33,589 nt of DNA from a bacterium (Candidatus Blackallbacteria) CG13_big_fil_rev_8_21_14_2_50_49_14 (GTDB lineage Bacteria; Cyanobacteriota; Sericytochromatia; UBA7694). A program made the position numbers and the translations under genes. Under the pieces are notes generated by a model. The model saw only the letters and a program-made list of their open reading frames with translations, had not been told where the DNA came from and did no database searches. This document shows, piece by piece, positions 5,589 through 13,604 of the stretch. The stretch's first letter is position 1, and the number at the start of each line of letters is the position of its first letter. The stretch spans positions 1 to 33,589 of the forward strand of contig PFGG01000051.1 in NCBI GenBank assembly GCA_002783405.1, read 5' to 3'.

Positions 5589-7232
5589 ATGGAACTCTTT
5601 CAACAAAGCGGTCCCGCATTGAGCAATCAATACCAGGCCGATCTGCTGCTGCGCAGCTGCTTAAACCGTCTCAGTGCAAACGATTTGCCCCCAGAAATTG
5701 AAAGCGATCTGCACGCAATGGGCGAACTGAGCGCAGGCCCGCTCTACCAATGGCAGCTCAAGGATCGGCTCAATGAACCCGTACTGACCCACTACGATGC
5801 CTGGGGCAAACGGATTGATCAGATTGAAGTCACCGAACTCTGGAAAGAAGCCGAACGCCTAACCCCACGTTTTGGCCTGATCGCCCTGCCCTACGAAAAT
5901 AAATATACCGCCCTCTCACGGGTCTTTCAATTCGCTCTGGTTTATCTGTTTACCCCCTCAACAGATATTTACAGCTGCCCCCTGGCCATGACCGATGGCG
6001 CAGCCGCAACCTTGCTGGCCACAGGCAACCAGGCCCTGATCGACAAAGCCCTGCCCCATTTAACCAGCCGCAGCCATGAAAATTTCTGGACCAGTGGGCA
6101 ATGGATGACCGAATTGACAGGCGGCTCAGACGTCGGCCTGAGCGAAACCATCGCCCGCCAGGAAGACGGACAATGGCGTCTGTATGGCCGCAAATGGTTC
6201 ACTTCAGCCACCACTTCGCAAATGACTCTGACCCTGGCACGCCCGGAGGGCAATGGGCCAGGGGGCAAAGGCCTGGCCCTGTTCATGGTCGAACTGCGCA
6301 ATTCACAGGGCCAATTACAAAATATCGAGGTCTGCCGTCTCAAAGACAAACTGGGCACCCGCAAAGTGCCCACGGCTGAACTCCTGCTGCACGGCACCCC
6401 GGCTCAATTGGTGGTCGGCACGCAGGACGGCGTTAAAAATATCACACCGATGTTGAATATCACGCGCACCTGGAACAGCGTTTCCGCCATCGCCCTGATG
6501 CGTCGGGGACTGGCCCTAGCCGAAGATTACGCCAGCAAACGCATCGCCTTTGGCGCCCCCTTGGCTGAGAAACCCCTGCACCGCGATACCCTTGAAATGT
6601 TGCAGGCCGAATTTGCCGGGGCCTTTGCCTTGACCTTTGAAAGTGTCTCTCTGCTGGGCCGACTCGAAAACAAGGATCTCAACCCCACAGAGCAACTCCT
6701 GCAGCGGGTGTTTACCCCCCTCACCAAACTGATCACCGGCAAGCAGGCCGTGTCTGTTTTAAGTGAGGTTTTGGAATGCTTTGGCGGGGCGGGTTATGTC
6801 GAAGACACCGGCTTGCCGCTTTTGCTGCGGGATGCCCAAGTCCTGCCCATCTGGGAAGGAACCACCAATGTGCTGTCCTTAGACACCCTGAGGGCTCTGC
6901 GCAGCCCTGAACATATTCAAACCTTTCGCACAGGCTTAGCGCTTTGGGCCGGTTCGCTCGAAGCTCCCGAAGTAGCTCCGATTGCCCAGAAAGCCCTGCA
7001 AACCGTCCATCTGGCCTGTGACTGGCTGCTGAAAACTGCCGCCCAAGGCCCCGAGCAGGTAGAACAGGGCGCTCGCCGTTTTGCCCTGACACTGGCCCGC
7101 AGCTTGGAATGCCTGAGCCTGGCCCGCCAGACACAATGGGCCATCACAGAACAAACCCCTGAAGCCCCAGCCCTGATCAACTGGCTGAAACGCTTTGAAC
7201 GCAATGCCGCACTGAACCACATCACAGAATAG
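5589..7232 (+). CDS. AidB-like acyl-CoA dehydrogenase
   Basis: This is a 547-aa flavoprotein of the acyl-CoA dehydrogenase superfamily, closest in length and layout to the AidB/isovaleryl-type branch. The ATG at 5589 is chosen because AGGAG lies 7 bp upstream; an in-frame start at 5535 has no ribosome site. The N-terminal helical domain is followed by the FAD-side motif MTELTGGSDVG (about residue 172) and the C-terminal helical domain with CFGGAGYVEDTG. IWEGTTNV then contains Glu423, the position used as catalytic base in many family members. It presumably oxidises an acyl-CoA, though AidB itself also binds DNA and has little dehydrogenase activity, so the substrate cannot be named. It is followed after 10 bp by a ferredoxin gene in the same orientation. 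Confidence 0.88.
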   Translation: MELFQQSGPALSNQYQADLLLRSCLNRLSANDLPPEIESDLHAMGELSAGPLYQWQLKDRLNEPVLTHYDAWGKRIDQIEVTELWKEAERLTPRFGLIALPYENKYTALSRVFQFALVYLFTPSTDIYSCPLAMTDGAAATLLATGNQALIDKALPHLTSRSHENFWTSGQWMTELTGGSDVGLSETIARQEDGQWRLYGRKWFTSATTSQMTLTLARPEGNGPGGKGLALFMVELRNSQGQLQNIEVCRLKDKLGTRKVPTAELLLHGTPAQLVVGTQDGVKNITPMLNITRTWNSVSAIALMRRGLALAEDYASKRIAFGAPLAEKPLHRDTLEMLQAEFAGAFALTFESVSLLGRLENKDLNPTEQLLQRVFTPLTKLITGKQAVSVLSEVLECFGGAGYVEDTGLPLLLRDAQVLPIWEGTTNVLSLDTLRALRSPEHIQTFRTGLALWAGSLEAPEVAPIAQKALQTVHLACDWLLKTAAQGPEQVEQGARRFALTLARSLECLSLARQTQWAITEQTPEAPALINWLKRFERNAALNHITE

Positions 7233-9313: not shown

Positions 9314-10174
9314 ATGGATCCAAAACTCGAACTCTACGACCGCTTGCCCGCTCTGCTCAAGAGTGGGCAGGACTGTGTCATGGCGATCCTGGTCGCCATC
9401 ACTGGAAGTGCCCCCCAAATACAGGGAGCACGGGTTTTGGTGAATGCCCAGGGGCTTGTTCAGGGAACCATTGGCGGCGGAAAAATTGAAGCCCGCGTAA
9501 TCGCCGAAGCCCAAGATTTGCTGAAAAGCAACGATCATTTCCGCTTCCACGAATGGAACCTGCAAACCGAGATCGGCATGACCTGTGGGGGCCTGGTCAA
9601 AATTTATTTTGAAGCCTTTCGTATTTCACGCTGGGAAATCGCCGTTTATGGCGCAGGACATGTCGCCCAGGCGCTGATTCCCCTCTTGCTCAATCTGGAT
9701 TGCCAGCTTCAATGTTTTGATCCACGCGCAGAATGGCTGGAACGTCTGCCAGAACACCCCCGCTTGAAGTGTCAGCAACTCGCAAACATGGCAGAATCGG
9801 TGGCTTCGCTTGCACCTGAAACCTTTCTGCTCTCACTCACCATGGGGCATGCCCATGATTTGCCAATTTTAGAGACCGCCTTAAAACGCAAGCACACGGA
9901 ACCAAAAGTTTTCCCTTTTTTGGGCGTGATTGGCAGCCCAGCCAAAGCAGGCGTATTGCAGCGGGAATTGCGGCAAAGAGGTCTGTCCCAGGCAGAAATT
10001 GAAACCATTCGCTGTCCAATCGGTTTGGCCCTGGGCAATAATCAACCGGCTGAAATTGCCATCAGCATTGCAGCCCAGCTCCTGCAGGAACGGGATCAGT
10101 ACTTCGGCAAAAATAAATGGGAGCAGCCCGGCTACCGCTCCCACCCAGTCACAGGAAAAGACTCAGACCCCTGA
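9314..10174 (+). CDS. xdhC: XdhC-family xanthine dehydrogenase maturation factor
   Basis: XdhC proteins bind the molybdenum cofactor, promote its sulfuration and insert it into xanthine dehydrogenase. This 286-aa protein has the XdhC/CoxI N-terminal domain with GTIGGGKIE at 51-59. Cys91 lies in MTCGG, a position often conserved and implicated in cofactor handling. A C-terminal Rossmann domain begins at YGAGHVAQAL (about 112-121). No xanthine dehydrogenase subunit gene is beside it, so it may serve an enzyme encoded elsewhere, including a related molybdenum hydroxylase. Its last 12 bp overlap, tail to tail, with the end of the convergent gene at 10163-10633. Confidence 0.85.
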   Translation: MDPKLELYDRLPALLKSGQDCVMAILVAITGSAPQIQGARVLVNAQGLVQGTIGGGKIEARVIAEAQDLLKSNDHFRFHEWNLQTEIGMTCGGLVKIYFEAFRISRWEIAVYGAGHVAQALIPLLLNLDCQLQCFDPRAEWLERLPEHPRLKCQQLANMAESVASLAPETFLLSLTMGHAHDLPILETALKRKHTEPKVFPFLGVIGSPAKAGVLQRELRQRGLSQAEIETIRCPIGLALGNNQPAEIAISIAAQLLQERDQYFGKNKWEQPGYRSHPVTGKDSDP

Positions 10175-10633
10175 GATTTCCTGAATCTCGCTCAATAAAC
10201 GCTTCTGCACCGCTGCCTGCAGGGGCAGAAAAACAGCCCAGCGCAAAAGAATCAGATAAAGCCCGCCCAACAGGCTCAATGCCAGCCATGTTCCCAAATA
10301 GGCCAAAGCCTTTTTGTCTCCGGCATGGGTCAGGATCTGAAGTGTTTGCAGCAAGTAAAAAAAGCCTGTTAAACAGAGCAGAAAACGCCAGGCGTGGCGA
10401 AAACTGGCGAGCAATTGCTGAAGCTGGTATGCTTCCAAAAATTCACGTTTCAGCAAGCGCAGCAAAGCCAAAGGCATGCCTTTGCCAAGCACCATCGCAA
10501 AAGCAAGGCCTCCCAAACCCAAGCCCAGGATCAGATCGGGCGTATAATAATCGAATAGTTTTTGATTGTTCATGAGAAAACTCAAGAACACCAAAAGCCC
10601 TGATAATCCCACAATAAAGAAGCGCTTCAGCAT
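10163..10633 (-). CDS. short MotA/TolQ-like membrane protein B
   Basis: This 156-aa protein has about four hydrophobic segments (about 5-20, 33-50, 83-100 and 109-138). The end of the protein (WLALSLLGGLYLILLRWAVF followed by LPLQAAVQKRL) resembles its upstream neighbour and the last helix of MotA-type channel subunits. It starts directly after the neighbour's stop with no gap, so translational coupling is likely. It lacks the large cytoplasmic loop of true MotA. It is the last gene of the sigma/anti-sigma operon. Ion conduction is not shown by the sequence; the family assignment is weaker than for the neighbour. Confidence 0.6.
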   Translation of the reverse strand: MLKRFFIVGLSGLLVFLSFLMNNQKLFDYYTPDLILGLGLGGLAFAMVLGKGMPLALLRLLKREFLEAYQLQQLLASFRHAWRFLLCLTGFFYLLQTLQILTHAGDKKALAYLGTWLALSLLGGLYLILLRWAVFLPLQAAVQKRLLSEIQEISGV

Positions 10634-11089
10634 TTAATACACCTCCTGTTCACAGATTTGATGCTGCAGTGCGTTTTGCAGCGGAATCACCACAAAGAGA
10701 TACACTCCCAAGGCGTAGATCAGGCCCAAAAGACTGAGGGCCAAGGCCATTCCCAAGGCCTTTAAATCATCCAGGTTTCCCAGGGCCTGAACGGTTCCAA
10801 TCAAAAAACAGGCAGCCCCGGCCAAAAGACCATACTTGCCCAAATTCCCCAGAATTTGGTAACTGAGTTTCAGCGATTGATCTGAGTTCCTCAAGCCCAA
10901 AGCCTGCACAAAGGCCTGAAAAATTTCAGAGGGAGAATAATTGAGAAAAACAAACAGCCAACCGGCCAAGATAAAGATCAGGGAAGCAGGATCCCACAAA
11001 TCCAATCCATGCAACCCATTCACAGCCATAAAAAAAGACACAGCCAGGCCCATCAGCACAAAATAGAATAACGATTTAATCCATTTCAT
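10634..11089 (-). CDS. short MotA/TolQ/ExbB-like membrane protein A
   Basis: This is a 151-aa protein with four predicted membrane segments (about 5-22, 35-50, 85-102 and 111-136). LWDPASLIFILAGWLFVFL resembles the second-helix region of MotA. From about 97 to 140, LIGTVQALGNLDDLKALGMA and the following helix ending VIPLQNAL match the GTxxGxxxxLxNLDDPxAxG...FLPL pattern of MotA-family pore helices. The usual cytoplasmic domain between helices 2 and 3 is reduced to about 30 residues. The ATG overlaps the anti-sigma stop by 4 bp (ATGA). The partner predicted from order is membrane protein B; neither has a periplasmic MotB-like mate in the window. A stress-linked ion channel is a hypothesis. Confidence 0.7.
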   Translation of the reverse strand: MKWIKSLFYFVLMGLAVSFFMAVNGLHGLDLWDPASLIFILAGWLFVFLNYSPSEIFQAFVQALGLRNSDQSLKLSYQILGNLGKYGLLAGAACFLIGTVQALGNLDDLKALGMALALSLLGLIYALGVYLFVVIPLQNALQHQICEQEVY

Positions 11090-11547
11090 CCTTTTAAACT
11101 CCTTTGACGATAGATTTTAAGCATTAAATTCAAAACATCTTCTGTTTTTACAGGAAAAGATTTCTGCAGTGACTGGGTCTGGGCCGGACGCTCCCAGTGA
11201 TGCGCCTCGGTTGCAGGTTTGTGTTCAACAAACCAAAAGAACAAGACCATCAAACCCGCCAGCGCAGGAACATGCAGAAAATTAAACCAGGCATCCAGGC
11301 GAAGCCAGCTCAGACGCACCTTGTTTGCCTGTTCAATCCTAGCCATCAAAGCATGATCGAACGCCCTTGAAACCGTGATCTCAGGCAAAATATCCAAAGC
11401 CTGCCAGCTGCTCAAAAGTACCTGAAGCTCAGGCTGCGACTGGCAATGCTCACAGGTATGTACATGCTCAATCCACTCAATGGGCTGCCCTTCAGCCAAA
11501 GCCTGTAAAATTTCTTCGTTCGAGGGGCACCCCTCAGGCTTCTTCAT
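11086..11547 (-). CDS. ZAS-type anti-sigma factor
   Basis: This 153-aa protein has the N-terminal zinc anti-sigma signature His-x3-Cys-x2-Cys in EHVHTCEHC (about residues 27-36). One membrane helix follows (FLHVPALAGLMVLFFWFV) and then a roughly 45-residue tail. The arrangement predicts a cytoplasmic sigma-binding domain tethered to the inner membrane. The ATG at 11547 is preferred over the TTG at 11553 because AAGGAG lies 7 bp upstream. It overlaps the end of the sigma gene by 14 bp. It most likely sequesters the ECF sigma factor encoded just upstream until a signal releases it. Confidence 0.82.
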   Translation of the reverse strand: MKKPEGCPSNEEILQALAEGQPIEWIEHVHTCEHCQSQPELQVLLSSWQALDILPEITVSRAFDHALMARIEQANKVRLSWLRLDAWFNFLHVPALAGLMVLFFWFVEHKPATEAHHWERPAQTQSLQKSFPVKTEDVLNLMLKIYRQRSLKG

Positions 11548-12127
11548 GCACAAGCTCCTTCAACTTTTTTCCCAGGCTTTGCACCGCGCGAAAAACCTGG
11601 GTTTTGACCTGATTCACCGGACAATCCAAGATCTCGGCAATCTGGCTGTACTTCAGATCTTGAAACTTGCTCAGGATCAAAACCTGCTGTTGGCGCACAG
11701 GCAAGGCAGAAATGGCGGCCTGCACCTGGGCCCGGCTCTCAGCCACCAACACCCTTTGCTCAGGAGAGATCTCTTGAGCGGGCAATTCAAAGGCCTGTTC
11801 CAGCGGCTCAAAGCGCTGGGGGCGCCGCCCCATTCTGCGCCAGTGGTCAATCAGCTGATGCTGGGCCAAACGGTAAAGCCAGGTTGAAAATTTCGCTTTA
11901 ACCTGATAATTCTTGGCCTTCCAAACCTTAATAAAAACCTCCTGAGCCAGCTCTTCTGCGCTTTCCTGTTCTCCCAGACTGCGATAAAAAAAATTGACCA
12001 AGGGCTGCTTCCAACGTTGAACCAACTGACGAAAAGAGACAGCATCCCCGCTCAGTACCCTGAGCATGAGGTCTTCATCGTGCGGAAAGAGATCGTGTGT
12101 TTCAGTTCTTGGTTTCATTCTTTGCAT
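11534..12127 (-). CDS. ECF-family RNA polymerase sigma factor
   Basis: This sigma-70-family factor has region 2 (RSLGEQESAEELAQEVFIKV and then FSTWLYRLAQHQLIDHWRR) and region 4 (ALPVRQQQVLILSKFQDLKY through SQIAEILDCPVNQVKTQVFR). It lacks regions 1.1 and 3, as expected for the ECF group. An ORF start at 12178 lies upstream of the candidate promoter and is rejected. The ATG at 12127 gives 197 aa, and the ATG at 12118 is an equally possible alternative. It is the first gene of a four-gene coupled operon with its anti-sigma factor and two MotA-like proteins, and is probably autoregulated through the promoter at 12148-12175. Confidence 0.88.
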   Translation of the reverse strand: MQRMKPRTETHDLFPHDEDLMLRVLSGDAVSFRQLVQRWKQPLVNFFYRSLGEQESAEELAQEVFIKVWKAKNYQVKAKFSTWLYRLAQHQLIDHWRRMGRRPQRFEPLEQAFELPAQEISPEQRVLVAESRAQVQAAISALPVRQQQVLILSKFQDLKYSQIAEILDCPVNQVKTQVFRAVQSLGKKLKELVHEEA

Positions 12128-12147: not shown

Positions 12148-12175
12148 GAAACGTCAGCGGCACAAAAAGGTTACA
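12148..12175 (-). promoter_or_regulatory. candidate ECF-type autoregulatory promoter
   Basis: Read on the minus strand, TGTAACC (12175-12169) is followed after 15 bp by CGTTTC (12153-12148). This resembles ECF promoters with an AAC-containing -35 and a CGT-type -10 about 16 bp apart. It lies about 20 bp before the sigma-factor ATG at 12127, which implies a very short leader. Spacing and position fit autoregulation, but no second copy of the motif was found to confirm it. Confidence 0.4.
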
Positions 12176-12395: not shown

Positions 12396-13604
12396 ATGTC
12401 AGAAGTTTATGTCGGACGACAACCTATTTTTGACCGCAACCTGGATGTTTTTGGCTATGAACTCCTCTATCGCAGCGCAGATCTCGAGCAGGCCCTGTTT
12501 ATGGATGGCAACCATGCCACTTCCGTTGTCATTTCGAATACCTTTCTCGAAATTGGTCTGGAACGGCTGGTGGGAGATAAACTGGCCTTTATCAACCTGA
12601 CCCGCCCCTTTCTCTTGGGAGAATTCCCCATTCCCCTCCAGCCCGACAAATTGGTTCTGGAGATTCTGGAAGATATCGTCCTGGATCAAGAATTGGTAGC
12701 TGCGGTACACGATCTGAAACAACAGGGTTTTACCCTGGCCCTGGACGATATCACCGATCCTGTTCGTTTAAAGGCTCTTCAAGGCCTGGCCAGCATCGTC
12801 AAAGTAGACCTGATGCAAACAGATCGCGCCCAGGTTCCCAGTCAGGTCGCCTTTTACAAACAGACAGGTGTCAAAGTTCTGGCTGAGAAAATCGAAACCA
12901 TGGAAGAGTTTGAATGGTGTGAGTCTTTGGGGTTCGACCTTTACCAAGGCTATTTTCTCTCCAAGCCGAAAGTGGTCAAAGAAAAAAAACTGACCGGAAC
13001 CAAAATTGTGATCATGCAGCTCTTGGCTGCCATGCAAAAACCCGATGTCGAATTTCAACGGATTGAAACCATCATTCAACATGACGTGGCCTTGAGTTAT
13101 AAACTCCTGCGTCTGATCAACTCAGCTTATTACGGCATGCGCTCTGAAATCAAATCGATTAAACAGGCCTTGACCTTGTTGGGGCTCCGCCAGATTCAGT
13201 CCTGGGTCTCTCTGCTGCTGCTTTCAGAAGCAGAAAACAAGCCTTCTGAGCTGATCAAAACCGCCATGGTACGTGGCAAAATGTGCGAACTCCTGGCTGA
13301 AACGCTTGAAGAACCCCGGCCAGAAATCCCCTTTACGATCGGGCTGTTTTCAGTGCTGGATGCCCTGATGGACATGAGTCTCGAAGATATTCTCGCCCAA
13401 GTTCCCTTGGCCCAGGATGTCAAAGACGCACTGCTCGAAAAAACAGGCCCCTATGGCCGCATCCTGGCCAGTGTTCTGGCCTATGAAAAAGCAGATTGGG
13501 CTCATGTCAGGATTCAAGGTTTGAATCCCCTGGATGTGGTGGATTGCTATATGGAAGCGATCGAATGGGCCGAAGAACTTGAGAGTTTCGTCGCGCAGCG
13601 TTAA
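12396..13604 (+). CDS. EAL-HDOD domain protein (YuxH/CdgJ type)
   Basis: This 402-aa cytoplasmic protein has an N-terminal EAL domain (about 1-195), starting VYVGRQPIFDRNLDVFGYEL, and a C-terminal HDOD domain (about 205-395) with SYKLLRLINSAYYG and IKQALTLLGLRQIQSW. Several EAL positions for c-di-GMP and metal binding look retained (Glu22, Asn67, Glu92, Asp117, Asp118, Lys136, Gln184). The usual DDFGTG loop reads DDITDP, which is degenerate. It could therefore be an active phosphodiesterase, a c-di-GMP sensor or a scaffold. The gene converges with the helical-repeat gene with only a 3-bp gap, so transcripts probably overlap at their ends. Confidence 0.88.
   Translation: MSEVYVGRQPIFDRNLDVFGYELLYRSADLEQALFMDGNHATSVVISNTFLEIGLERLVGDKLAFINLTRPFLLGEFPIPLQPDKLVLEILEDIVLDQELVAAVHDLKQQGFTLALDDITDPVRLKALQGLASIVKVDLMQTDRAQVPSQVAFYKQTGVKVLAEKIETMEEFEWCESLGFDLYQGYFLSKPKVVKEKKLTGTKIVIMQLLAAMQKPDVEFQRIETIIQHDVALSYKLLRLINSAYYGMRSEIKSIKQALTLLGLRQIQSWVSLLLLSEAENKPSELIKTAMVRGKMCELLAETLEEPRPEIPFTIGLFSVLDALMDMSLEDILAQVPLAQDVKDALLEKTGPYGRILASVLAYEKADWAHVRIQGLNPLDVVDCYMEAIEWAEELESFVAQR

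Follow-up and report, generated by a model that had tools for sequence, protein, structure and literature searches.

Stator A subunits are usually known as ion-driven motors that are encoded with a B subunit. What, then, are two short MotA-like proteins doing, with no such partner, in one operon with an extracytoplasmic function (ECF) sigma factor and its anti-sigma factor? The question is raised by a four-gene operon in contig PFGG01000051.1 (assembly GCA_002783405.1) of the bacterium CG13_big_fil_rev_8_21_14_2_50_49_14, which belongs to Candidatus Sericytochromatia, uncultured non-photosynthetic relatives of cyanobacteria. We analyzed positions 1 to 33,589 of this contig (the window, 33,589 nucleotides), for which an earlier note, made from the sequence alone, had proposed an ECF sigma/anti-sigma operon carrying two short MotA/TolQ-like channel proteins. 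We found the operon to be genuine and its two membrane proteins, here called Mot1 and Mot2, to derive from MotA, firmly in the first case and probably in the second. The reading that we favor, with a probability of about one half, is a self-regulating ECF switch whose anti-sigma factor would work with two pore-dead MotA-like partners (a co-anti-sigma role), comparable to that of YhdL with YhdK.

A four-gene ECF operon with a MotA-derived pair

The four open reading frames (ORFs) all lie on the minus strand, exactly where the earlier note had placed them, and are coupled as it described: the genes for the sigma factor (11534..12127, 197 aa) and the anti-sigma factor (11086..11547, 153 aa) overlap by 14 bp, those for the anti-sigma factor and Mot1 (10634..11089, 151 aa) overlap by 4 bp, and the gene for Mot2 (10163..10633, 156 aa) follows with zero gap. 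The first product matches Sigma70_r2 (3e-16) and Sigma70_r4_2 (5e-16) in Pfam as well as TIGR02937 (3e-30); with regions 2 and 4 only, as in TIGR02937, its domain content clearly assigns it to the ECF type. The second is a class I zinc-type anti-sigma factor, consisting of a C-x20-H-x3-C-x2-C domain, one transmembrane (TM) helix at about residues 89-107, and a C-terminal tail of about 45 aa. It has been reported that Hx3Cx2C in the N-terminal domain is the defining signature of zinc-type class I anti-sigma domains (ASDI/ZAS; PMC7406223), and the protein encoded next to the sigma gene carries it as H28-x3-C32-x2-C35. Its best solved relative is the anti-sigma domain (ASD) of RsiW, a weak match (E=0.016); PRK13920 anti-sigmaE was found at E=0.001, far below the model cut-off, and there was no match among the Pfam anti-sigma models. 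Across four orthologues, C7, H28, C32 and C35 in the N-terminal domain are invariant, as is a motif at the membrane edge, W81-x3-D85-x2-F88-x5-P94.

Mot1 and Mot2 each have four TM helices. Their relationship to MotA would be missed if only Pfam were consulted, where Mot1 scores 0.12 and Mot2 nothing, and a plain-sequence scan of the genome contigs with Mot1 gave no matches, an alignment query being needed. Mot1 matches the NCBIfam PomA/MotA models (E=4e-7 to 1e-5; PomA model 4.4e-7), and a seven-sequence profile of Mot1 and Mot2 reaches solved MotA/PomA chains at E values up to 8e-14, with the TM1-TM2 and TM3-TM4 pairs both collinear with 6YSL MotA. In hhalign comparisons, Mot1 aligned with the clade's own MotA at 7.7e-10 and with Mot2, over the full length, at 5.6e-8, and Mot2 aligned with MotA at 8.4e-5. 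Structure prediction, proposed earlier as a check on the fold, bore out Mot1 and was less conclusive for Mot2: the AlphaFold model of Mot1 has four TM helices (predicted local distance difference test score, pLDDT, 80), and its Foldseek matches in the PDB at ranks 1-23 are all MotA/PomA (best E=5.5e-4), with TolQ/ExbB appearing only at E about 1 or worse; for Mot2 (pLDDT 69) the top matches are also MotA/PomA but weak (E=0.2). Profile and fold thus make the descent of Mot1 from MotA firm, and that of Mot2, the more diverged paralogue, probable, mainly through its kinship with Mot1.

The profile also locates what has been lost. Its positions 58 and 66 flank an alignment break between residues 58 and 133 of 6YSL MotA, which means that the torque domain is largely gone: most of the ~75 cytoplasmic residues between TM2 and TM3 are absent, together with the tail after TM4, in line with the near-loss of the cytoplasmic domain claimed from the sequence. 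The pore-helix pattern on which that claim of MotA kinship had leaned, GTVQALGNLDDLKALG...IPLQNAL, is located in Mot1; Mot2 retains far less of it, and "pore-helix pattern" claims too much, since the residues that have disappeared are those of the ion path.

Missing ion-path residues and no linked B subunit

In an alignment of nine Mot1/Mot2 proteins and five true MotAs from their clade, none of the nine had the proline of TM3 or the threonine tract of TM4, whereas that proline and the second TM4 threonine were present in all five true MotAs. The TM4 proline near the cytoplasmic end was kept in 9/9, and the column of PomA T158 (the TM3 threonine) holds threonine in one of the nine proteins, the Mot1 of relative G001 (G000 denotes the source genome, G001-G006 relatives of the same order, and C a contig). 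Because T158, T185 and T186 of PomA are each required for ion transport (PMC6677748), the absence of the TM3 proline and of the threonine tract in TM4 from every Mot protein leaves the "channel" label, part of the earlier proposal, poorly supported. Having lost these residues and the torque domain, Mot1 and Mot2 are more likely to help in holding or tuning the sigma switch than to serve as ion channels.

Neither the operon nor its flanks contain a MotB, TolR or ExbD gene in G000, G001 or G002, as had been noted for the window. The usual arrangement places A and B genes side by side (PMC12505986), and both MotB genes of the source genome adjoin their own MotA. In an own-genome search, the anti-sigma factor, viewed as a hidden B subunit, matched neither the MotB_plug nor the ExbD models. 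Two ExbD/TolR-like genes of the source genome have no detected adjacent ExbB/TolQ, one in C15 (L116 4129-4566) and one in C50 (L117 3411-3815); the latter sits at a contig end, so an ExbB belonging to it may lie outside the assembled sequence. Another B-less MotA derivative was seen as well: a MotA-like gene without MotB (~360-410 aa), occurs in C65 of the source genome (L030 15857-16930) and in G003 (L061 2710-3945), and its neighbourhood, with a TsaD-like gene, is shared between these two genera.

Conservation of the gene order

The same four-gene order, for which the earlier note had suggested a search of genomes as a test of the module, is conserved across genera and families: it is present in four genomes of Candidatus Sericytochromatia that represent two families (G000, G001, G002 and G006), and the operon ORFs overlap or abut in each. 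The relatives with the locus are MAG_89, maxbin_SP350_1.003 and LF-bin-423. The operon of G002 is complete, the sigma gene of G001 is cut by the contig start, and in G006, from the other family, Mot2 is cut by the contig end with 61 codons present. The sigma orthologues are 66% (G002) and 44% (G006) identical to that of the window, and the 4-bp overlap between anti-sigma and Mot1 genes reads ATGA in G000, G001 and G002. Since the operon flanks differ among these three genomes (downstream, and partly upstream), the four genes form the conserved unit.

Of the 18 class genomes, exactly the four named above contain this family of anti-sigma factors, and the Mots co-occur with it in 4/4. A fifth, weak anti-sigma match in G004 (E=0.003) was rejected as part of an unrelated repeat protein. 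In a search of 386 genomes of the phylum, the short Mot proteins were confined to five genomes, all in this order, the fifth being G004; G003 and G005 have neither the Mot pair nor the sigma pair. No wider family of short pairs was found in the phylum, as the hits outside the order were all full-length MotA-type ORFs (255-439 aa). As far as searched, a B-less, torque-less, pore-dead MotA pair in an ECF operon is restricted to one order of Sericytochromatia.

An ECF sigma factor encoded near the Mot pair of G004 was considered as its cognate sigma and rejected, being 26% identical to the window sigma and having an unrelated multi-repeat anti-sigma. Also in G004, an anti-sigma-like ORF (L027 4934-6418) beside an ECF sigma gene (6415-7188) encodes several nearly identical units in tandem, each resembling an N-terminal domain (LSAYYDGE...MGFLDNLLQTI; partly masked in the record), followed by one TM helix. 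Next to the operon in the window, a gene at 12396-13604, transcribed divergently from it, encodes a signalling protein of the EAL/HDOD type; in G002 this gene is likewise close to the operon (L025 10795-12003), with another gene in between.

A predicted promoter and a second target

The window sequence upstream of the sigma gene, TGTAACCTTTTTGTGCCGCTGACGTTT, contains a predicted ECF promoter, TGTAACCTTT-N12-CGTTT, at 12149..12175 on the minus strand, just outside the region covered by the earlier note; its -10 element is ~22 bp before the sigma start codon. The 27-bp pattern is common to the sigma genes of G002 and the distant G006, so that it is present in all three sigma genes for which upstream DNA was available. 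Across the seven genomes, the 15 defined bases of the pattern have five exact sites: the three sigma genes and two lipoprotein genes. The lipoprotein sites (G000:C43:24322-24348, L057; G002:C20:95891-95917, L059) lie 34-36 bp upstream of orthologous genes, the products of which are DMP19-like (PF14300) and 52% identical.

A motif derived from two sigma sites alone had already picked up these two sites, which are thus independent of the motif definition; the 15-base form was later trimmed to the bases common to the sites, which makes its own exact count descriptive. Paired sites agree at 17/27 and 23/27 bases, and their upstream flanks at 12/60 and 19/60, at or near chance. The DMP19-like lipoprotein occurs in G000, G001 and G002 only among the seven genomes of the order, and the G001 orthologue has no promoter match. 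When one mismatch was allowed, eight sites were found versus two for a reversed control. The three sites that differ by one base are about as many as the two of the control, and we rejected them as targets; one precedes MotA in G006, and the other two are in G002, before a HEAT-repeat gene and inside a gene. The one-mismatch copy at G006:C98:9970-9996 (L106 3471-3497) is ~290 bp upstream of full-length MotA-MotB genes and is within chance. A shorter, 11-base motif was not selective genome-wide (7 sites, fewer than the reversed control), and consequently the weight lies with the 15-base form and the orthologous positions alone. With this footprint, an autoregulated ECF promoter with a second target, a first regulon, is a well-supported prediction.

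Discussion

The anatomy of the operon and its promoter are well supported. Beyond gene content, gene order, MotA descent, loss of ion-path residues, and a conserved promoter with a second target, all of which are read from the sequence itself, we infer that the anti-sigma factor binds the sigma factor, that Mot1 and Mot2 associate with the anti-sigma factor, and that the signal comes from the envelope. In the mechanism that we propose, the N-terminal zinc-type domain of the anti-sigma factor would tether the sigma factor at the membrane. Mot1 and Mot2, derived from a flagellar-type MotA after loss of its torque domain, tail and ion path, would form a heteromeric membrane scaffold binding the single TM or juxtamembrane segment of the anti-sigma factor, and this scaffold may set how tightly the sigma factor is retained or by which route an envelope signal reaches it. 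Once released, the sigma factor would act at TGTAACCTTT-N12-CGTTT to transcribe the operon that encodes it, and would also transcribe one or more genes for DMP19-like lipoproteins.

We favor a co-anti-sigma role for the Mot pair because of the tight coupling of the genes, their lock-step co-occurrence, and the loss of the ion path. A precedent is sigM-yhdL-yhdK, in which YhdL binds SigM but is fully active only together with YhdK, another membrane protein from the operon; in a yhdK null the SigM regulon rises about 100-fold, and control of the YhdL-YhdK complex is believed to be allosteric and not proteolytic (PMC6827917, PMC11081497). Three points weigh against this reading. The parallel with YhdK would be one of functional analogy, not homology. 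Co-transcription is equally expected of a regulon output. Finally, G004 (assembly 83% complete) has a Mot1-Mot2 pair without a recognizable copy of this anti-sigma, so the pair can exist without it.

The last two points bear on a possible, if rather less than probable, account in which the sigma factor induces Mot1 and Mot2 together with the lipoprotein as its output, and the pair stabilizes or remodels the envelope while leaving the anti-sigma factor untouched. ECF operons often include target genes, the only other well-supported target encodes an envelope lipoprotein, and the pair of G004 occurs without this sigma/anti-sigma; however, the ATGA coupling of anti-sigma to Mot1 and the 4/4 co-occurrence suggest matched stoichiometry. 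The earlier note had left the pair as either sensor or output of the switch. Sequence does not decide this, nor can it separate a co-anti-sigma role from an output, although a channel fits less well than a co-anti-sigma role.

It is also conceivable, but unlikely, that the anti-sigma factor is itself the B subunit: its TM helix would replace the MotB/ExbD helix in a degenerate Mot1/Mot2 ring, and envelope tension or membrane potential/energization would lead to sigma release. The topology of the anti-sigma factor, as judged from the position of its anti-sigma domain, resembles that of a B subunit (N-in, one TM, C-out), the operon has no B gene, and the invariant W-x3-D-x2-F-x5-P lies at the cytoplasmic membrane edge. 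Yet the protein resembles neither B-subunit model, its TM helix has no internal aspartate in the MotB sense, and the ion-path residues on the A side are gone. A working ion channel formed by Mot1 and Mot2 with an ExbD-type B subunit encoded elsewhere is highly improbable: the two ExbD-like genes of C15 and C50 lacking a detected A-type neighbour could supply the partner, but the TM3 proline and TM4 threonine tract are lost in all nine proteins, an A gene is normally found next to its B gene (PMC12505986), and the C50 gene may have its own ExbB beyond the contig end.

Each part of this locus is of a known kind, and a B-less, torque-less, pore-dead MotA pair in an ECF operon is a combination that we did not find in the literature searched; searches for ECF/anti-sigma operons with MotA/ExbB-like partners returned nothing of this kind. 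A MotA derivative, duplicated and deprived of torque domain and ion path, has been fixed beside an ECF sigma/anti-sigma pair since at least the time when two families of a single order arose. If the Mot pair acts on the anti-sigma factor, a motor subunit would have been recruited to transcriptional signalling; if the anti-sigma factor is the B subunit, this would be a motor-derived transcription switch. Its defined promoter, together with a first target gene, makes the system testable in a heterologous host.

Comparison with known systems

In FecI-FecR surface signalling, a working, unlinked ExbBD-TonB motor acts on an outer-membrane receptor. The present operon resembles FecI-FecR with ExbB-ExbD-TonB in that an ExbB-family motor takes part there in ECF/anti-sigma signalling, and differs in having no receptor or TonB gene. 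ExbB/TolQ and the generic ion transporters with a condensed cytoplasmic domain (CCD2/CCD3) share with the Mots a cytoplasmic part that is small relative to flagellar stators, but the Mots have a four-TM layout like that of MotA and not of ExbB/TolQ, an even smaller cytoplasmic part, and no linked ExbD/TolR. With MotA/PomA, they share four TM helices in the same order, the TM4 proline, the GNLDD-type TM3-TM4 loop (Mot1), and the fold; unlike MotA/PomA, they are tandem paralogues without the torque domain, the C-terminal tail, the TM3 proline, the TM4 threonine tract, or a linked MotB. As a regulatory system, the operon can be set beside SigM-YhdL-YhdK of Bacillus subtilis, which likewise combines an ECF sigma factor, a membrane anti-sigma factor, a further operon-encoded membrane protein, and autoregulation (here predicted), although in this other phylum the anti-sigma factor has a zinc motif and two four-TM MotA-derived proteins stand in the place of YhdK.

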